From Clostridium sp. AT4 (GTDB lineage: Bacteria; Bacillota; Clostridia; Lachnospirales; Lachnospiraceae), in assembly GCF_001517625.2 (NCBI RefSeq), contig NZ_LN999828.1:1070303-1134302 (forward strand): 64,000 nt of DNA. Reading direction: 5' to 3'. The notes under the pieces are model-generated. The model had not been told where the DNA came from, searched no databases, and saw nothing but the letters and a program-made list of their open reading frames with translations. A program made the position numbers and the translations under genes. Shown piece after piece: positions 32,575-41,000 of the stretch (position 1 is its first letter; every line of letters starts with the position of its first letter).

Positions 32575-32602
32575 AGAGCTTTTTTTATAAAAAGCTCTTT
32601 TC
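32575..32602 (+). terminator. Intrinsic terminator after polC
   Basis: AGAGCTTTTT (32575-32584) and AAAAAGCTCT (32589-32598) form a perfect stem followed by TTTT. Confidence 0.7.
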
Positions 32603-32662
32603 CGGCTTTGCGGGGGAATGCATAAGGGCCGGAATACAAAAAAATTATGGGAGATATGAGAA

Positions 32663-34021
32663 ATGGAACGTGAAAAGTTTTCTTCCAGGCTGGGCTTTAT
32701 CCTGATTTCAGCAGGATGCGCCATCGGTCTGGGCAATGTATGGCGTTTTCCCTATATTGTGGGAAAATACGGTGGAGCCGCCTTTGTGCTGATCTACCTT
32801 GCTTTTCTTCTGGTCCTGGGACTTCCTATTGTAGTGATGGAGTTTGCCGTGGGCCGGGCCAGCAAAAAGAGCGCGGCTCTGTCCTTTGATCTGCTGGAAC
32901 CCAAGGGAAGCAAATGGCACCTGACAAAATATATAGCAATGGCCGGAAACTATATGCTGATGATGTTTTACACTACAGTAGCCGGCTGGATGCTTCTGTA
33001 CTTTTTTAAAATGCTCCGGGGCGACTTTAATGGACTTGATTCTGCCGGTACGGCAGAGGAATTCAGCAAAATGCTGGCTGATCCGGTGATCATGACGGTA
33101 TTTATGGTTGTCATTGTTCTGGTATGCTTTACCATCTGCGCGCAGGGACTTGTATCTGGCGTAGAGCGTATTACAAAGATCATGATGCTCCTTTTGTTCC
33201 TTTTAATGGTGGTATTGGCCGTTCATTCGGTACTGTTAGAGGGTGGTGCTCCGGGTCTTGAGTTTTATTTAAAGCCGGATTTCGGAAAGATGAAGGAGGC
33301 CGGACTGGGAGAAGCGATCTTTGCAGCTATGGGCCAGTCCTTCTTTACCTTAAGTATCGGAATCGGCGCTCTTGCGATTTTCGGAAGCTATATCGGCAAG
33401 GAAAAGAGACTTACCGGAGAGGCCATCAGCATTACTCTGTTAGATACCTCAGTTGCTTTTATGTCCGGTCTTATCATTTTCCCAGCCTGCTTTGCTTATG
33501 GGATCGAGCCTACATCCGGTCCGTCCCTTATCTTCATTACCCTTCCAAATGTATTTAACCATATGGCAGGGGGACAGCTGTGGGGCGCTCTGTTCTTTGT
33601 ATTTATGACCTTTGCGGCCCTGTCTACGGTAATCGCCGTGTTCCAGAATATCATTTCCTTTGCCACAGACCTGACCGGCTGTTCCGTTAAAAAGGCTGTG
33701 TTCTGGAATGTGATCGTAATCATCCTGCTGTCCATGCCGTGTGTTCTGGGCTTTAACGTCCTGAGCGGTATTCAGCCTCTGGGACCGGGAACCACCATTC
33801 AGGATCTGGAAGACTTTATTGTCAGCAATAACCTTCTCCCCATCGGAAGTGTGCTGTATCTGCTGTTCTGTACCAGCCGGTATGGATGGGGCTTTAAAAA
33901 CTTTGTAAATGAGGCAAATGAAGGAGAGGGGATTGCTTTCCCGACCTGGGCCAGAGTCTATGTGTCCTGTATCCTTCCTCTGATTGTACTGTTTATTTTG
34001 ATTGAAGGTTATATTGGATAA
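32663..34021 (+). CDS. Sodium-dependent transporter of the NSS/SNF family
   Basis: 452 residues with about eleven to twelve hydrophobic segments. The first helix carries the sodium/substrate-binding hallmark GCAIGLGNVWRFPYI; later GQSFFTLSIGIGAL and SGLIIFPACFAYG match MhsT/LeuT-like transporters. The family imports amino acids with Na+. Substrate is not determinable here. The gene is monocistronic between terminators. Confidence 0.9.
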   Translation: MEREKFSSRLGFILISAGCAIGLGNVWRFPYIVGKYGGAAFVLIYLAFLLVLGLPIVVMEFAVGRASKKSAALSFDLLEPKGSKWHLTKYIAMAGNYMLMMFYTTVAGWMLLYFFKMLRGDFNGLDSAGTAEEFSKMLADPVIMTVFMVVIVLVCFTICAQGLVSGVERITKIMMLLLFLLMVVLAVHSVLLEGGAPGLEFYLKPDFGKMKEAGLGEAIFAAMGQSFFTLSIGIGALAIFGSYIGKEKRLTGEAISITLLDTSVAFMSGLIIFPACFAYGIEPTSGPSLIFITLPNVFNHMAGGQLWGALFFVFMTFAALSTVIAVFQNIISFATDLTGCSVKKAVFWNVIVIILLSMPCVLGFNVLSGIQPLGPGTTIQDLEDFIVSNNLLPIGSVLYLLFCTSRYGWGFKNFVNEANEGEGIAFPTWARVYVSCILPLIVLFILIEGYIG

Positions 34022-34040
34022 TTTACAGATGTTCTCAAAG

Positions 34041-34070
34041 AACCTGCTCATCTATTTGGGCAGGTTTTTT
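34041..34070 (+). terminator. Intrinsic terminator after the sodium-dependent transporter
   Basis: AACCTGC (34041-34047) pairs with GCAGGTT (34060-34066), followed by TTTT. Confidence 0.8.
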
Positions 34071-34187
34071 GAAAATTGTAAACAGGGGGTAAAAATGGGT
34101 TTGAACTTTTTCGCAGCTATTTAAATACACGTTATGTGGGAGCTTTTTTGGATAACAGGAAAGTGTAAAAATCATGCAGAAACAATT

Positions 34188-34218
34188 ATGAGCCAGAGTT
34201 TCCTATACTCTGGCTCAT
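34188..34218. repeat. Perfect 12-bp inverted repeat before the D-amino acid island
   Basis: ATGAGCCAGAGT (34188-34199) and ACTCTGGCTCAT (34207-34218) form a stem without a strong T tract. It could be a factor-independent terminator relic or a protein-binding site. The rest of the 34071-34388 gap is AT-rich and shows no gene. Confidence 0.55.
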
Positions 34219-34388
34219 TTGATGTCTAAGAGTCCTGTCTCACTTGTCTATATAAAAAATTATACATTTATATAAGAAACGATTTTTGTAGATAAATAAA
34301 ATTGTATATTTTTGCAAATCAAATCGAGTTTTTAATATAAAAAGCAGTAAAAATATCTATCAAATACAGAATTATATAGAAATAATTA

Positions 34389-34417
34389 TTGACATTATAT
34401 ATAAAATATTCTATAAT
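34389..34417 (+). promoter_or_regulatory. Consensus sigma-A promoter of the 34.4-39.6 kb operon
   Basis: TTGACA (34389-34394), exactly 17 bp, TATAAT (34412-34417). It is 31 bp before the first gene's ATG. Confidence 0.85.
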
Positions 34418-34447
34418 ATGATTATCAATCCATAAGGGGGCAGTACA

Positions 34448-34840
34448 ATGAACAAACCAGAAGTTATCGAAACAAAATATTCTGTCAGAGACGGAGGACA
34501 TTATGTACCGGGCATAAAATACAATGGTGTTTTGTACATATCCGGTCAATTGTCGATTGATCCGGAAATAGGAAAAGTTCCTGAGGGAGGAGTAAAAGCA
34601 GAGGCAGCCCAGGCATTGAAGAATCTGCATACAGTTTTAAAAGAAGCAGGCTTAAATAAAGAAGATGTTCTCCAGTGCAGGGTATATCTTCCAGATGTTG
34701 CTTACTGGGGAGAGTTTAATCAGGTATACTCAGAATTTTTTGGAGCGCATAAACCTGCCAGGGTTGTTGTTCCGACGAATCATCTGTATGGAGGTTGTCT
34801 TGTGGAAATAGAAGCGGTTGCTGCCTGCGGAAAGGAGTAA
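34448..34840 (+). CDS. RidA-family enamine/imine deaminase
   Basis: 130 residues of the Rid (YjgF) fold. The conserved arginine of active deaminases is in PARVVVP (about residue 103) and the C-terminal glutamate region is VEIEAVAACGK. RidA hydrolyses 2-aminoacrylate and other enamine/imine intermediates to keto acids and ammonia. As first gene of the operon, six bases ahead of a PLP enzyme able to form such intermediates, it is probably a dedicated partner. Confidence 0.88.
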   Translation: MNKPEVIETKYSVRDGGHYVPGIKYNGVLYISGQLSIDPEIGKVPEGGVKAEAAQALKNLHTVLKEAGLNKEDVLQCRVYLPDVAYWGEFNQVYSEFFGAHKPARVVVPTNHLYGGCLVEIEAVAACGKE

Positions 34841-34846
34841 AAATTT

Positions 34847-35953
34847 ATGAACTATATGGAACTTGATACGCCTGCTCTGATAATTGACCGTGAGATTATG
34901 ATGGATAATCTCAGATTTATGCAGGATTATGCAGATAGAAAAAAGGTGGCGCTGCGGCCGCATACTAAAACTCATAAAATGCCGAAGCTTGCGCTGATTC
35001 AGGAGGACCTTGGAGCAAAAGGAATCACCGTAGCTAAGGTTGGGGAAGCAGAGGTAATGGCTGCTGCAGGGCTTAAAAATATTTTTATTGCAAATGAAAT
35101 TGTTGGAGCCGTAAAGCTTGCAAGAATTCGTAAGCTAGCAGAATCAATTGATATTTCCTTTGGCCTAGATTCGATTGATCAGGCGAAAATGATTGAAGCC
35201 GCATTTGAAGGTGCAGATAAGAAGGCGCAGGTGCTTATAGAAATTGAAGTAGGCGAGGAGCGGTCCGGCGTAATCGAACAGGATGATTATATAAAACTGC
35301 TTCATTATCTGAAAACATGCAAAAATATTTATCTGAAAGGCATTTTTTCTCATGATGGCAATTCATATGGAGCGGCAGATATTTCAGAATGTCGGAATAT
35401 TCATCTGACGGCTCAGAAACGGACACTGGAATTTGCTCGTTTGGCAAAAGAGGAGGGGATGGAGCTTGAAACGGTCAGTATCGGTTCTACTCCATCGATG
35501 ATGCATGATTTTCCGATTCTGGAGGGAGTTACGGAGATACGTCCGGGAACTTACATTTTCATGGATGCCTCTCAGGCAAATGCCTATGGCTCTCTGGACA
35601 GAAACGCTGCGACAGTTCTTACAACCATTATCAGCCGTCCGACTGCTGAACGGGTGATTACAGATGTTGGTGCAAAGGGAATTACAGCACAGACCAGAAG
35701 CAAAGGTTTTTGTGCCACACAGGGTCTTGGGCTTATTAAGGGATGGCCAGATGTTGAGATTTTCGATGTGTACGATGAACATGCGATTATTTATAATCAA
35801 CAATTCCGTGATCATGTAAAAGTGGGAGATAAGGTGGAAATTATCCCGAATCATATCTGTCCGGTAGTGAATCTTCATGAATATGCATATCTAGTATCGA
35901 AGGGACAGGTGATTGAAAAAATATCTGTAGAATGCAGGGGAAAACTTTTGTAA
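34847..35953 (+). CDS. D-threonine aldolase / D-serine dehydratase-like PLP enzyme
   Basis: 368 residues, alanine-racemase fold type III PLP enzyme. The PLP lysine motif is RPHTKTHK (residues 37-44, Lys41 the likely Schiff base), the mid-barrel SIGSTPSMM segment is near 205, and the metal-ligand motif NHICPVVN near 333-340 is that of the DSD/D-TA family. Members split D-beta-hydroxy amino acids either by dehydration or by retro-aldol cleavage. Which reaction occurs cannot be told; RidA beside it argues for the dehydratase or an imine-forming reaction. Confidence 0.82.
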   Translation: MNYMELDTPALIIDREIMMDNLRFMQDYADRKKVALRPHTKTHKMPKLALIQEDLGAKGITVAKVGEAEVMAAAGLKNIFIANEIVGAVKLARIRKLAESIDISFGLDSIDQAKMIEAAFEGADKKAQVLIEIEVGEERSGVIEQDDYIKLLHYLKTCKNIYLKGIFSHDGNSYGAADISECRNIHLTAQKRTLEFARLAKEEGMELETVSIGSTPSMMHDFPILEGVTEIRPGTYIFMDASQANAYGSLDRNAATVLTTIISRPTAERVITDVGAKGITAQTRSKGFCATQGLGLIKGWPDVEIFDVYDEHAIIYNQQFRDHVKVGDKVEIIPNHICPVVNLHEYAYLVSKGQVIEKISVECRGKLL

Positions 35954-35992
35954 TGTAAATCGGCTATTATAGATTATTTTGGAGGAATGCAT

Positions 35993-36820
35993 ATGACAAA
36001 ATTAAAAGCCGCAATGCTGCAGTCACATGTATATTCGGATAAAGCAGAAAATATCCGTGCTCTATGCGTAAATCTGGAAGAACTGGCAAAAGAGAAGCCG
36101 GATCTGGTAACGCTGCCTGAGATGTTTAACTGCCCTTATCAAAGCAGCAATTTCCCTGTCTATGCCGAAAAGGAAGGAGGAGAAACCTGGCAGGCTCTTT
36201 CTGCCCTGGCAGCAAAATATGGAATTTATCTTTCGGCGGGATCTGTTCCAGAAGTAGATGAACAGGGGCATATCTTTAACACTGCTTATGTATTTGACCG
36301 CAACGGAAAACAGATCGCTAAGCACCGGAAAATGCATCTGTTTGATATAGAGGTCGAAGGCGGACAGTCCTTTAAAGAATCCGATACGCTGACGCCTGGT
36401 GATCAGGTGACAGTGTTTGATACTGAATTTGGAAAAATGGGAATCTGTATTTGTTTTGACTTTCGTTTTCCGGAACTGGCGCGTCTGATGGTGCTTGAAG
36501 GTGCTCGGGTGATTCTGGTACCTGCCGCCTTTAATATGACAACGGGACCGGCTCACTGGGAAATCCTTTTCCGAACCAGGGCGTTAGACAATCAGGTTTA
36601 TACCCTTGGAACAGCCCCTGCAAGGGATGCTGATGCAGGTTATACATCCTGGGGGCATACAATAGCAGTTTCGCCCTGGGGTGACATAATGGGACAAATG
36701 GAAGAGAGGGAGGGCTTCATGATTCAGACTCTGGATCTTGACAAAGTAAAAAAAGTCAGACAGGAGCTCCCTTTGTTAAAAAACAGGAGAAGTGATATTT
36801 ATCTGTTGAAAAAGCAGTAA
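35993..36820 (+). CDS. Carbon-nitrogen hydrolase (nitrilase superfamily, omega-amidase/NIT2-like)
   Basis: 275 residues from ATG 35993 (GGAGG 8 bp upstream; ATG 35987 is too close). The Glu-Lys-Cys triad is visible in LPEMFNC, KHRKMHLF and GICICFDFRFPE (about residues 42, 111 and 152). The match to omega-amidase/NIT2-type enzymes suggests hydrolysis of an omega-amide of a keto acid, such as 2-oxosuccinamate. Substrate is inferred only. It is co-directional with neighbours. Confidence 0.85.
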   Translation: MTKLKAAMLQSHVYSDKAENIRALCVNLEELAKEKPDLVTLPEMFNCPYQSSNFPVYAEKEGGETWQALSALAAKYGIYLSAGSVPEVDEQGHIFNTAYVFDRNGKQIAKHRKMHLFDIEVEGGQSFKESDTLTPGDQVTVFDTEFGKMGICICFDFRFPELARLMVLEGARVILVPAAFNMTTGPAHWEILFRTRALDNQVYTLGTAPARDADAGYTSWGHTIAVSPWGDIMGQMEEREGFMIQTLDLDKVKKVRQELPLLKNRRSDIYLLKKQ

Positions 36821-36858
36821 GGGGATAATGGGAGCAAAAACAAAGGAGGTTTTCAAGA

Positions 36859-37725
36859 ATGTCAAAAGAGAAAACAGAGGTAACCGTAGACCGGATTTTA
36901 AGCAGTAAAAATGGTCGTTGGCCTGTATTCATTAAACTTTTTGTTCTTGTAGCAGCTGCCGGTATTATTTCGGAGATTATTGGCACAAAAACAATTCCTC
37001 TTGGAAGTGTTGGGAAGGTAAACATTACTGCCATGGTATTTGCCATGCTTATTGCAGTACTGGTAACACCGGATGCTTTGGGGAAAATATTTTCACCATT
37101 AAAGAGTATCTGCAGTGAAAAGGAAGTTGAATTGAGTGAGGCAGCTCTTTCTTTTATGCTTTTGATTCTGGGCGTAAAATTAGGAACCAGTTCCGGACCT
37201 AATATTTTGAAAATTCTTCAGGCTGGACCAGCACTGATTCTGCAGGAGTTTGGAAATCTGGGAACAATGCTGGTGGGTCTTCCGATTGCCATGCTTCTTG
37301 GAATGAAGCGCGAAGCCTTTGGCGCAACGGTGAGTATCTGCCGCGAGCCGTCTCTGGGACTGATTAACGAACGTTATGGAGCCAATTCACCGGAATTTCT
37401 TGGCTGTATGGGAACCTATATGGTAGGAAATCTGTTTGGCGCAGTATTTTTTGGAGTTCTTGCATCTCTGGCAGTTAATACAGGCCTTCATCCATATTCG
37501 CTGGCAATGGCCTGTGGCATGGGGTCTGGTTCTATGATGACTGCATCATCGGCAAGCCTTGCTGCAACTGTTCCGGAGATGGCAGAGGAAATTATGGCCT
37601 ATGCTTCCATGTCTAATATCTGCAGTAATATTGATGGTCTTTATATGGAGTGTTTTATCGCAATTCCAGTAGCGGAAAGGCTATATCGAGTATACAGCAA
37701 ACTGTTAAGACGCAAAGATGCATAA
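36859..37725 (+). CDS. DUF3100-type integral membrane protein
   Basis: 288 residues with about seven or eight hydrophobic segments. Its pattern (SEAALSFMLLILGVKLGTSS, REAFGATVSICREPSLGLIN, ACGMGSGSMMTASSASLAAT) matches the DUF3100 family of membrane proteins. I know no proven function. The position beside an M20 hydrolase and PLP enzyme makes a transporter likely. RBS AAAGGAGG precedes ATG 36859. Confidence 0.7.
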   Translation: MSKEKTEVTVDRILSSKNGRWPVFIKLFVLVAAAGIISEIIGTKTIPLGSVGKVNITAMVFAMLIAVLVTPDALGKIFSPLKSICSEKEVELSEAALSFMLLILGVKLGTSSGPNILKILQAGPALILQEFGNLGTMLVGLPIAMLLGMKREAFGATVSICREPSLGLINERYGANSPEFLGCMGTYMVGNLFGAVFFGVLASLAVNTGLHPYSLAMACGMGSGSMMTASSASLAATVPEMAEEIMAYASMSNICSNIDGLYMECFIAIPVAERLYRVYSKLLRRKDA

Positions 37726-37739
37726 AGGAGGATATGTTT

Positions 37740-38216
37740 ATGTCAGCAAAAGTTGAAAATACATTAAATCAGTTAAAGGTGCTGTTTCTCTGCGGTCTTT
37801 CTGTAATGCTCATTTATGCCGGGCGGGTTGTTATTAAAGGTGCGGAGATTAATGTGGGTAAGGCAGTCAGTGGTATGGCAATCCTTATTCTTGTATCATT
37901 AGTTTCTCTTAAGATCAAGGAGATTCTTCCGCTTAAAATCCCCGCATTTGCCTGGGCATCTTTGATTTCACTGTTTTTAACTACGCCATGGTGCCCCATC
38001 CAGGAACTGGTTCTGGATTTGATTGGACAGATCGTAACATCTGATATAAGTGATGCAATTATGGCCATTGCAGGTATTTCTATCGGCTGTAAGCTTGGAG
38101 ATATTAAAAAGCTGAGTTGGAAAATGGTACTGGTTGCCCTTGTAGTATTCTGTGGAACATTTTTCGGTTCTGCAATCATTTCGCATATTGTATTATCCAT
38201 TCAGGGAATCATTTAG
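37740..38216 (+). CDS. Small integral membrane protein, partner of the DUF3100-like protein
   Basis: 158 residues from ATG 37740 (AAGGAGGATATG). Four or five hydrophobic segments; the C-terminal GISIGCKLGDIKKLSWKMVL segment resembles membrane proteins of bacterial exporters, and LGVKLGTSS/IGCKLGDI are similar in position to the neighbouring gene. The 14-bp gap suggests a two-subunit transporter. Function not recognised. Confidence 0.6.
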   Translation: MSAKVENTLNQLKVLFLCGLSVMLIYAGRVVIKGAEINVGKAVSGMAILILVSLVSLKIKEILPLKIPAFAWASLISLFLTTPWCPIQELVLDLIGQIVTSDISDAIMAIAGISIGCKLGDIKKLSWKMVLVALVVFCGTFFGSAIISHIVLSIQGII

Positions 38217-38246
38217 TTGTCAAACAATAACAGGCGGTGAAGAAAT

Positions 38247-39578
38247 ATGACAAAAGAAGAAATGAAAGAAAAAGCCATTGCGGTTATCGACAAACACAGA
38301 GAATGTTACTTGACTCTGGGAAAAACGATTTATGAAAATCCGGAAACTGGATACAGAGAAGTAAAAACAACAAAACTTTTGGCCGATGCATTAGAAGCGT
38401 TGGGATTAAAAACAGACCGCGATATTGCAGTTACCGGTTGCCGTTCTTATGCGAATGAAAATAAAGAGGGTCCTAAAGTAGTAGTCATGGGAGAGTTGGA
38501 TTCTGTTGTGTGTCCAGAACATCCAGACTGCGATAAGGATACGGGGGCCATTCATGCCTGTGGTCATAATATACAGACAACCGTTATGTATGGTGTTGCT
38601 GATGCGCTGGTGCACTCCGGTATTCTGGATCAGCTTGACGGGAAAATAGATTTCATGGCAGTTCCGGCAGAAGAATATATTGAAATGGATTACCGTCAGA
38701 AGCTTAAAGACGAAGGAAAATTAAATTATTTTGCAGGAAAAGTGGAACTGATTTCAAAAGGCGCTTTTGACGATGTGGATATGTGTATGATGGTACACAA
38801 TTTCCCGTTGGCTGAAGAAGGGTATAAACTGGCTGCCCGTAATACTGGAAATGGATTTATTGGAAAGAATACCCGTTTTCTGGGAAAACAGTCTCATGCA
38901 GGCGCTGCACCCTGGGATGGGATCAATGCATTAAATATGGCCAGTCTGGCAATGACGGCTATGGCCTATCATCGTGAAACCTTCAGGGAAGAGGATACCG
39001 TGCGGGTTCATCAGATTATCAATAAAGGCGGTGATATTGTAAATGCAGTTCCGGCGGATGTACGGCTTGAAACTACTGTAAGAGCAGGGAATTTAAATGC
39101 ACTGCGCGCTACCAATAAAAAAATCAATCAGAGCATTGAAGGCGCGGTGTACGCTTTAGGTGGAAAAGCGGTTGTAACAGATGCTCCGGGACAAATGCCG
39201 TTAAAAGCAGATTTAAATATGGCAGACTGTTTCCGTCAGAATGCACTGTATTTTTACAAAGAGGAGGAAATCCTTGACTGTATGAAGAGCACTGCTTCTT
39301 TTGACATGGGAGATGTATCTTTATTAATGCCTGTCCTTCACGGTATTACAACCGGAATAGAAGGCGGACTTCACTCCAAGGATTACAGGATCGTAAGTGT
39401 AGAGGATGCTTATATTATCCCAATCAAGATTATGACATGTACGGTAATTGATCTTCTGGCAGATGGCGCGCAATGTGCGAAAGATATAAAAAACAAATTT
39501 GTTCCAGAGGTTACAAAAGAAGAATATCTTCAGATATTAAAAGAAATCGAGCATGAATATCATTACGGTGAATCATAA
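38247..39578 (+). CDS. M20-family metallo-amidohydrolase
   Basis: 443 residues with the M20 dinuclear metal pattern: GELDSVVCPEHPDC, HACGHN (about residue 107), PAEEYIEM, a dimerisation domain (about 195-310: LGKQSHAGAAPWDGINALNM) and final HSKDYRIV. M20D members release acyl or other groups from N-substituted amino acids or p-aminobenzoyl-glutamate-type amides. It is the last gene of the operon, preceding a bidirectional terminator. Confidence 0.85.
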   Translation: MTKEEMKEKAIAVIDKHRECYLTLGKTIYENPETGYREVKTTKLLADALEALGLKTDRDIAVTGCRSYANENKEGPKVVVMGELDSVVCPEHPDCDKDTGAIHACGHNIQTTVMYGVADALVHSGILDQLDGKIDFMAVPAEEYIEMDYRQKLKDEGKLNYFAGKVELISKGAFDDVDMCMMVHNFPLAEEGYKLAARNTGNGFIGKNTRFLGKQSHAGAAPWDGINALNMASLAMTAMAYHRETFREEDTVRVHQIINKGGDIVNAVPADVRLETTVRAGNLNALRATNKKINQSIEGAVYALGGKAVVTDAPGQMPLKADLNMADCFRQNALYFYKEEEILDCMKSTASFDMGDVSLLMPVLHGITTGIEGGLHSKDYRIVSVEDAYIIPIKIMTCTVIDLLADGAQCAKDIKNKFVPEVTKEEYLQILKEIEHEYHYGES

Positions 39579-39583
39579 TTAAG

Positions 39584-39632
39584 AAAAAAGAAATGCTTGC
39601 TCTGTTATTACAGAAGGAAGCATTTCTTTTTT
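39584..39632. terminator. Bidirectional terminator between the amidohydrolase and the regulator gene
   Basis: AAAAAAGAAATGCTT (39584-39597 region) pairs with AAGCATTTCTTTTTT (39618-39632), with U-rich ends on both strands. Confidence 0.8.
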
Positions 39633-40272
39633 AATGATTATCATTTTTACGGATTTCATCCAGATAGCTGTAAATAGTTACTTTGGAAAGATTCATGCGT
39701 TCAGCCACTTTTTCGAGAGTGCCTTTGATCATGAATATTTCTTTGTCATACATAAAACGTATGATATCGATTTTCTGATCCCGGCTCATATTTTCTACGT
39801 CACGATCTCCGATGGTTTTGTCAATGATATCATTTACAAGTTCCTGAATACTGGGAATGACTTCATTTTGTTCAGTGCCGGTATGTGCAGTCGTTTCAGG
39901 AATTCCCAGAATCCGGCTGAGATCAGCGATAACATTGCTTAGCCGTGTCAGATCAATGTTTACGCACAGGGCACCAATAGCTTTCCCGTTATTATCCCGG
40001 ATCAGACTGGTAGAGGATTTGATTTTTTTTTCGTCCTTACCTTCCATGATATAATTGGCACAGCAGTCATCGTGAAATTTTCTGGAAAGAAGAACTTCCT
40101 TTACAAAATACTCGGTAAAGCTTTCTCCGACAGCCCTGTTAGTAACGATATTATTTTCGATATATACAACGGAAGATTGAGGTGTGGAGAAATCGTGCAG
40201 GATAACCTCACAGTCAAAGGTCTGTGAGATCAGTTTTGCAGCAGGAATAAAATTGTTTAACGTTGGATGCAT
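39631..40272 (-). CDS. YheO/DauR-type transcriptional regulator (PAS-like sensor plus HTH)
   Basis: 213 residues from ATG 40272 (AAGGAGACTCAT upstream). Residues about 1-115 form the YheO-like PAS/CACHE ligand domain (CEVILHDFSTPQSSVVYIEN, GKAIGALCVNIDLTRL), and the C-terminus carries a helix-turn-helix (TLEKVAERMNLSKVTIYSYL). The known member DauR regulates D-arginine catabolism. The convergent position beside the operon suggests control of that operon by its substrate. Confidence 0.85.
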   Translation of the reverse strand: MHPTLNNFIPAAKLISQTFDCEVILHDFSTPQSSVVYIENNIVTNRAVGESFTEYFVKEVLLSRKFHDDCCANYIMEGKDEKKIKSSTSLIRDNNGKAIGALCVNIDLTRLSNVIADLSRILGIPETTAHTGTEQNEVIPSIQELVNDIIDKTIGDRDVENMSRDQKIDIIRFMYDKEIFMIKGTLEKVAERMNLSKVTIYSYLDEIRKNDNH

Positions 40273-40300
40273 ATGAGTCTCCTTTGTGTTTTATATCAAT

Positions 40301-40329
40301 AGTATATAGAAAAAAATTTATAAGTTCAA
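40301..40329 (-). promoter_or_regulatory. Promoter of the YheO-type regulator gene
   Basis: On the minus strand TTGAAC (40324-40329), a 17-bp spacer and TATACT (40301-40306). Confidence 0.6.
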
Positions 40330-40515
40330 CGGAAATTGAAGAATAAATTATAAATATTCTATAAAACTTTTAAAATAAGCCGGTAGTAATCCTGGTGTTT
40401 ATGACAGGTGTTTCATATAATTCTTATTTTTGTGGTCGATGCAGACATTAATAAATCTTCAAATGGCAATGTTTCCAGTTGTTTAAATTATTTTAAAAAT
40501 TATGAAAATTTATGG

Positions 40516-40544
40516 TTGACATTTCCTGAAAAGTGTATTATACT
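40516..40544 (+). promoter_or_regulatory. Promoter of the tRNA cluster
   Basis: TTGACA (40516-40521), 17 bp spacer, TATACT (40539-40544), 12 bp before tRNA-Pro. Confidence 0.8.
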
Positions 40545-40556
40545 TACGTACGTAAT

Positions 40557-40630
40557 CGAGGCGTGGCTCAGTTTGGTAGAGCGCTGCGTTCGGGACGCAG
40601 AGGCCGCGTGTTCGAATCACGTCGCCTCGA
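40557..40630 (+). tRNA. tRNA-Pro (anticodon CGG)
   Basis: 74 nt cloverleaf: acceptor CGAGGCG/CGCCTCG, anticodon stem CTGCG-TTCGGGA-CGCAG with anticodon CGG, T loop TTCGAAT, discriminator A. Confidence 0.95.
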
Positions 40631-40638
40631 TTTTTCAA

Positions 40639-40710
40639 GGCCTGATGGTCAAGCGGTCAAGACGACGCCCTCTCACGGCGTAAACCCGGGTTCGATTCCC
40701 GGTCAGGTCA
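40639..40710 (+). tRNA. tRNA-Glu (anticodon CTC)
   Basis: 72 nt cloverleaf: acceptor GGCCTGA/TCAGGTC, anticodon stem ACGCC-CTCTCAC-GGCGT with anticodon CTC, T loop TTCGATT. Confidence 0.92.
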
Positions 40711-40718
40711 CTGATGGG

Positions 40719-40747
40719 ATGGTTGTTGCATTGCAACAGCCATTTTT
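40719..40747 (+). terminator. Terminator inside the tRNA cluster
   Basis: ATGGTTGTTGC and GCAACAGCCAT form a stem with one G-U pair, followed by TTTTTC; it separates tRNA-Glu from tRNA-Thr. Confidence 0.65.
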
Positions 40748-40792
40748 CATCTTTATGGATATTGATTTACATCTAAAATTTAATAGTTGTAT

Positions 40793-40865
40793 GCTTCCAT
40801 AGCGCAGTTGGTAGCGCACTTCACTCGTAATGAAGGGGTCGCCGGTTCGAGTCCGGCTGGAAGCT
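40793..40865 (+). tRNA. tRNA-Thr (anticodon CGT)
   Basis: 73 nt cloverleaf: acceptor GCTTCCA/TGGAAGC, anticodon stem CTTCA-CTCGTAA-TGAAG with anticodon CGT, T loop TTCGAGT, discriminator T as for threonine tRNAs. Confidence 0.93.
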
Positions 40866-40872
40866 TGTAAAG

Positions 40873-40902
40873 CAGACCATCGGTTTTCGGTGGTCTGTTT
40901 TT
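40873..40902 (+). terminator. Terminator after tRNA-Thr
   Basis: CAGACCATCG and CGGTGGTCTG pair with a short loop and are followed by TTTTTC. Confidence 0.75.
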
Positions 40903-41000
40903 CATTTATTTACTACTGTGCTCTTATGGATAATGACGTACGGGCTGCCTGTCAGGATGAAGGGTATGGAAGTATTTCAGGTATTAGGAGGAGAACATAC

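Follow-up and report, generated by a model that had tools for sequence, protein, structure and literature searches.

Gene content and layout of the locus

The 64,000 bp stretch of Clostridium sp. AT4 analyzed here (the window, part of one contig in a 3.41 Mb genome) contains six co-directional plus-strand genes (34448-39578) that encode a RidA-family protein, a fold-III pyridoxal phosphate (PLP) enzyme, a nitrilase, a DUF3100 membrane protein, a small membrane protein and an M20 hydrolase, and that we tentatively read as an inducible operon for the breakdown of beta-hydroxyasparagine. The genes are separated by gaps of 6, 33, 38, 8 and 30 bases, and Pfam assigns their products to Ribonuc_L-PSP; Ala_racemase_N with D-ser_dehydrat; CN_hydrolase; DUF3100; and M20, leaving the small DUF3100 partner without a Pfam or NCBIfam match. 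A first-pass annotation of the same DNA had placed these genes here, together with a consensus promoter and a convergent YheO-type regulator gene; all were found, and Pfam confirmed the families of every gene product except the partner.

34389..34417, plus strand: promoter TTGACA-17-TATAAT, matching the consensus at 12 of 12 positions
34404..34416, plus strand: exact copy of the 13-mer AAATATTCTATAA, overlapping the operon -10; candidate regulator site
34448..34840, plus strand: RidA-family protein, probable enamine/imine deaminase (PF01042, 103.6 bits)
34847..35953, plus strand: fold-III PLP enzyme of apparent dehydratase type (D-serine / D-threo-3-hydroxyaspartate dehydratase; PF01168 and PF14031)
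35987..36820, plus strand: predicted omega-amidase (NIT2-type nitrilase), with mouse NIT2 (2w1v) as best solved relative
36859..37725, plus strand: DUF3100 membrane protein, probable transporter subunit (PF11299, 293.6 bits against a gathering cut-off of 27)
37734..38216 (or from 37740), plus strand: membrane partner of DUF3100, about 160 residues, which accompanies DUF3100 in relatives
38247..39578, plus strand: M20 amidohydrolase/peptidase (TIGR01891, 158.9 bits, over the curated cut-off of 153.75)
39584..39632, unstranded: hairpin between the M20 and YheO genes (-27.8 kcal/mol, z -8.1)
39631..40272, minus strand: YheO-type regulator with the PAS_6 and HTH_22 architecture of YheO/DauR proteins (PF08348, 101.9 bits; PF13309, 63.8 bits)
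40352..40364, plus strand: second exact copy of AAATATTCTATAA, upstream of the regulator gene

The 34389 site is the only perfect promoter in a scan of 32600-41000, where promoter-like sites overall are not above shuffles (20 found, shuffle mean 21.0), and we infer that it drives the whole operon. The regulator gene is convergent with the operon, beyond the hairpin; none of 200 shuffles folds as well as this hairpin, which is probably a bidirectional terminator for operon and regulator. Within the window AAATATTCTATAA occurs exactly twice (mean 0.005 in 200 first-order simulated windows, none with two), although the word was picked after both copies had been seen; allowing up to 2 mismatches, 10 copies are found against a shuffle mean of 2.86. 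In a comparison by eye of promoter regions from 8 of the 10 operon loci described below (the window included, L036 and L058 left out), a TTGAC stretch appears in all 8, with CTATA 20-22 bases after its start in 7 and TAGAA beginning 12 bases before TTGAC in 5; these stretches, picked by eye and without a formal control, are only a suggestion of an operator shared across the orthologous operons. An in-frame ATG at 37740 is better spaced from an AAAGGAGG site than the 37734 start used here, and may be the true start of the partner gene.

Recurrence across genomes

We compared 71 DUF3100 loci, window excluded, obtained from 74 stretches (L027-L100) after leaving out L027 (same genome as L050), L049 (where DUF3100 is broken and only a fragment remains) and L096 (which lacks a clean open reading frame, ORF, for DUF3100); short loci L001-L026 had been replaced by longer stretches. 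This count may hold further duplicate genomes besides the removed L027, and gene absences given throughout refer to the fetched stretch, with L034, L036 and L054 lying on short contigs. DUF3100 is present in 15 of 98 relatives (own genome included), and 51 loci came from one scan of named genomes. Nine of the 71 loci also carry the dehydratase-type PLP gene:

L033, L034, L036: same genus as the window
L050: [Clostridium] asparagiforme DSM 15981 (CP102272.1), now Enterocloster asparagiformis, Lachnospiraceae
L051: uncultured Hungatella
L052: uncultured Oscillospiraceae
L053: Angelakisella massiliensis
L054: uncultured Angelakisella
L058: Oscillospiraceae metagenome-assembled genome

Counting the window, the operon set is thus found, not always complete, in 10 genomes. 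Enterocloster is a gut-dwelling genus, and AT4 too is probably a gut bacterium. The nine further loci rule out an operon confined to one strain, an outcome that the first-pass annotation had named as grounds for abandoning its proposal.

Omega-amidase is present at 7 of the 9 dehydratase-bearing loci and at none of the 62 others, RidA at 6 and none, a YheO-type gene at 7 and 1, and an aspartate dehydrogenase (AspDH)-like gene at 6 and 1 (6 of 10 loci once the window is included); the lone YheO and AspDH-like cases among the 62 are both in L057, whose contig starts at DUF3100. An eighth omega-amidase lies beside an M20 gene at the end of a separate contig in the L036 genome. The genes occur in two layouts, RidA-dehydratase-nitrilase-DUF3100-partner-M20 and DUF3100-partner-dehydratase-nitrilase-M20, and this difference in order speaks for functional conservation of the set. 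Across 17 genomes of the genus, omega-amidase is found in 6, covering all 5 that carry the dehydratase (the fifth by the truncated L036 copy). The dehydratase clade itself is rare: 10 of 299 genomes of the family match at 1e-60, with only G102 close beyond the genome itself (1.3e-180), and 5 of 391 genomes of the class match at 1e-80, own included, the other four all belonging to family f45. No close second copy was found in the AT4 genome, where one weak match (2.9e-5) has an internal stop.

Enzyme assignments

The window nitrilase aligns with mouse NIT2 at 281 bits (280.9; 45% identity, 272 alignment columns), the best of 54 matched solved-structure sequences, and with yeast Nit3 at 244 bits (243.9), the other 52 scoring at most 155.3 (worm NitFhit, 155 bits); it is nearer to NIT2/Nit3 than to NIT1 or carbamoylases. 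Its Glu-Lys-Cys triad (E45, K115, C156) aligns with mouse E43, K112 and C153, which we take to be the NIT2 catalytic residues, and we predict an omega-amidase activity from these similarities. It is the sole match in its own genome at E 0.001, a search that gave no second omega-amidase. The RidA-family protein scores 104.4 bits against TIGR00004, just below the 106.25 cut-off, and has the PAR motif, whose arginine is needed for deaminase activity.

The PLP enzyme carries the lysine motif HTKTHK and the metal motif NHICP, with no equivalent of His193. In an alignment with 5 solved relatives, the window clade has a His-x-Cys metal pair in 14 of 14 rows and G, Q, N, A or S in the His193 column. 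Chicken D-serine dehydratase and the D-threo-3-hydroxyaspartate (D-THA) dehydratase of Delftia sp. HT23 likewise have His-x-Cys and no His193, and share with the window enzyme a GSTP motif and, with all 14 clade rows, a His at the position of the aldolase Tyr187, whereas two D-threonine aldolases and the aldolase BhcC show His-x-Asp together with the aldolase base His193. What the metal pair and His193 do is taken from excerpts of PMC4401734. Against the BhcC model NF045642 the window enzyme reaches 181.8 bits, the equivalog cut-off being 690. It belongs to the same PLP family as the zinc-dependent yeast D-serine dehydratase Dsd1p, a protein outside the present alignment. On its catalytic residues, not on the tree, the enzyme looks like a dehydratase; of the two reactions that the first-pass annotation had allowed, dehydration fits these residues and aldol splitting is disfavored.

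Predicted transport and hydrolysis

Hydropathy peaks of the DUF3100 protein fall within residues 19-210, and a homolog of its partner stands beside DUF3100 in nearly all loci, one cluster holding 69 partner and 72 DUF3100 ORFs. A hydrolase gene lies within 3.5 kb and on the same strand as the pair in 62 of the 71 loci (M20 in 52, Amidohydro_1 in 11); 9 have no such neighbor, 4 of which (L034, L036, L089, L100) are cut short by the end of the contig on one or both sides. With these hydrolase neighbors, DUF3100 and its partner are probably a transporter, and import of amide-linked compounds is suggested as its predicted direction and substrate. The window M20 protein retains candidate metal residues (C105, H107, E142/E143, H184, H376), which presumably bind the metal, and its solved relatives, among them Xaa-Arg dipeptidase, IAA-amino acid hydrolase and HmrA, are too varied to fix a substrate.

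A DUF3100-partner fusion in L039 (one 443-residue ORF) was considered as proof of interaction and given little weight, because that draft genome is 77% complete, neighboring genes are broken and the close relative L038 has the two genes separate. A serine hydroxymethyltransferase-family gene lies near DUF3100 on the same strand in 7 of the 71 loci (L035, L056, L061, L065, L078, L080, L099), which come from Firmicutes, Spirochaetes and one haloarchaeon; its product is perhaps another kind of enzyme for beta-hydroxy amino acids that goes with the putative DUF3100 transporter.

A proposed route for beta-hydroxyasparagine

We propose that the operon encodes an inducible route that degrades beta-hydroxyasparagine in its L-erythro form, its D-threo form or both, with the substrate probably entering as a conjugate or short peptide, and we hold this reading at somewhat short of an even chance. 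DUF3100 and its partner would import the compound, and the M20 enzyme would split an amide bond to release beta-hydroxyasparagine. The metal/PLP enzyme, given its motifs, would then remove the beta-hydroxyl to leave the enamine/imine of 2-oxosuccinamate, which RidA could hydrolyze, and the omega-amidase, whose closest relative is NIT2, would convert 2-oxosuccinamate to oxaloacetate and ammonia. An AspDH-like enzyme, whose gene is linked in other operon loci and not in the window, might carry oxaloacetate to aspartate. The YheO-type protein would sense the compound or a product and control both promoters.

Published enzymology provides precedents for the central steps. Excerpts of PMC8071972 report that yeast D-serine dehydratase consumes L-erythro-beta-hydroxyasparagine, the product being transaminated to D-Asn, and cite work in which D-THA dehydratase takes both D-threo and L-erythro hydroxyaspartate; a commentary (PMC8662797) warns of possible template bias in the structural model that underlies the binding argument. 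In the excerpted text of PMC5485471, NIT2 turns 2-oxosuccinamate into oxaloacetate. The first-pass annotation had proposed a catabolic system for a substituted D-amino acid, naming beta-hydroxy-asparagine-like compounds as one example of a substrate. That example proved the best fit found, and the view of a probably catabolic operon that recurs and includes both a RidA-family protein and a nitrilase of omega-amidase type stands; a D-amino acid substrate is not established, nor is it forced, because Dsd1p and D-THA dehydratase also take L-erythro substrates. Support for it had also been drawn from the regulator, on the ground that DauR, a YheO-type protein, governs D-arginine use; titles returned by our literature search held nothing bearing on a D-amino acid ligand for YheO/DauR regulators, and membership in the YheO family does not fix the ligand.

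According to excerpts of PMC8071972, human urine contains roughly 34-50 uM L-erythro-beta-hydroxyasparagine, of unknown origin, and plasma beta-hydroxyasparagine rises as kidney function falls (excerpts of PMC10122376 and PMC13318015). The urinary compound perhaps derives from hydroxylated epidermal growth factor-like domains of the host. That the operon is a dedicated gut-bacterial path for host-derived L-erythro-beta-hydroxyasparagine, and that DUF3100 with its partner is moreover a new importer, made of two parts, that takes up hydroxy-amino acid conjugates containing an amide, is a joint claim that we consider doubtful while still worth stating. If true, a bacterial sink for beta-hydroxyasparagine would be directly testable in C. 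asparagiforme DSM 15981 and Angelakisella massiliensis, whose genomes carry the operon, and DUF3100 would gain its first functional setting. The open-licence literature searched yielded no bacterial route of hydroxyasparagine breakdown, no operon with such a combination of enzymes and genes, and no occurrence of the name DUF3100; the earlier statement that no system with this gene set is described agrees with that search, and a description may exist elsewhere.

Evidence against the route and alternative readings

Several findings weigh against the proposed beta-hydroxyasparagine route. Against each of the 10 NCBIfam families listed, the nitrilase falls far short of the cut-off. The linked dehydrogenase of C. 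asparagiforme has PF01958 and PF03447 domains and is AspDH-like only, being below curated cut-offs (TIGR03855, 181 against 206.55; NF009828, 173.8 against 177), and the AT4 genome has no AspDH gene linked in the window, its one relative, at 40% identity, lying elsewhere. No RidA gene was found in the vicinity of L033, L034 and L036, the last two on short contigs. Omega-amidase occurs outside the genus without this dehydratase clade (G035, G041, G042, G066, G075), with no operon gene near it in the 4 of these that were fetched; conversely, L058 has an Amidohydro_1 protein in place of the omega-amidase, and the dehydratase clade appears with neither omega-amidase nor DUF3100 in L113 (from G102) and in all 4 f45 stretches (L126-L129), in three of which a threonine-synthase-like PALP gene adjoins it (L127 and L129 by Pfam, L126 by a near-identical start). 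Because of f45, L113, L058 and the unlinked AspDH, we keep as an unlikely but substantial alternative the degradation of D-serine, D-threonine or another simple beta-hydroxy-D-amino acid, in which M20 would free the amino acid, dehydratase and RidA would yield pyruvate or 2-oxobutyrate, and the omega-amidase would do metabolite repair or handle another amide. D-serine is indeed the classical substrate of this PLP-enzyme family (excerpts of PMC8071972), but such a role leaves unexplained both the link of a NIT2-type enzyme to dehydratase-bearing DUF3100 loci and the AspDH-like gene, and the one omega-amidase found in the genome is that of the operon. We regard as rather improbable an operon for scavenging peptides or N-acyl amino acids, with M20 as the key enzyme and the others serving diverse products: the association of DUF3100 and partner with M20 or Amidohydro_1, mostly where the dehydratase module is lacking, speaks for it, while the joint recurrence of dehydratase, omega-amidase, RidA, AspDH-like and YheO genes would go unexplained. 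A substrate one carbon longer, beta-hydroxyglutamine, would give 2-oxoglutaramate and then, by omega-amidase, 2-oxoglutarate, and excerpts of PMC5485471 include 2-oxoglutaramate beside 2-oxosuccinamate among NIT2 substrates; the AspDH-like neighbor points instead to a C4 product, the published dehydratase precedents are beta-hydroxyasparagine and beta-hydroxyaspartate, and we judge this variant very unlikely.

The dehydratase assignment itself, on which the beta-hydroxyasparagine route depends at its third step, is opposed by overall similarity. The window enzyme scores highest against the D-threonine aldolase 4v15 (181.6 bits), and the tree joins its clade of 14 with the aldolases (and L120) at support 91/90, not with the two solved dehydratases, which stand apart on long branches that leave the deeper part of the tree unsure. 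Nor is His-x-Cys without His193 proof of dehydration, because 8 of 8 distant clostridial relatives (L114-L121), among them L120, share the pattern, and excerpts of PMC4401734 note a His-Cys pair in a predicted aldolase/racemase. A path in which a beta-hydroxy-D-amino acid is split to glycine and an aldehyde would agree with the similarity and the tree; it is countered by the metal and base residues of the whole clade and would leave RidA without an obvious role, and although overall similarity points the opposite way we give it only the slimmest chance of the readings considered.

Comparison with known systems

The predicted activity resembles that of D-serine and D-THA dehydratases, in an enzyme that is nearer to the aldolases overall and lies in a clade of its own. 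The omega-amidase differs from NIT2 in its setting: its gene shares a bacterial operon with that of a dehydratase-type enzyme, and it is not coupled to Asn/Gln transamination. The beta-hydroxyaspartate pathway (BhcABCD) handles a C4 beta-hydroxy amino acid with a fold-III PLP enzyme on a route to aspartate, and the proposed window route would share all three of these features; to our knowledge it includes no omega-amidase, M20 or DUF3100. With the D-arginine system dauBAR the window presumably shares the YheO-type PAS_6/HTH_22 regulator, but no DauA- or DauB-like gene was seen among the window proteins scanned with Pfam.

Related gene arrangements and flanking genes

Other arrangements of these families were encountered. 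The f45 threonine-synthase-like protein has a zinc-ribbon-like start, RidA is also present in L127, and the two PLP proteins of f45 possibly act each on one epimer of a beta-hydroxy amino acid. Genes for an EamA transporter and for a protein of the acetamidase/formamidase family lie near the L113 dehydratase. In L148 (G010:C27) an omega-amidase is grouped with RidA, a class-V aminotransferase whose gene is split in two, a further YheO-type gene and a sodium:dicarboxylate symporter; this cluster again pairs RidA, YheO, a PLP enzyme and omega-amidase, and is a second type of RidA/omega-amidase operon. In L043 and L044, DUF3100 stands beside an Iso_dh-family gene with no M20 or Amidohydro_1 near; the L044 gene is over the cut-off of a tartrate dehydrogenase model, and L043 has a C45 acyltransferase-family gene. 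The C. difficile loci (L081-L084) represent a different operon, in which a LacI-type regulator gene precedes DUF3100-partner-M20 and DUF1177 comes after it. Just upstream of the window operon, on the same strand, is a sodium:neurotransmitter-symporter-family gene (32663-34021), and a gene of this family also precedes the operon in L058. Beyond the regulator gene, at 40556-40865, lie three genes for tRNAs: Pro-cgg, Glu-ctc and Thr-cgt.

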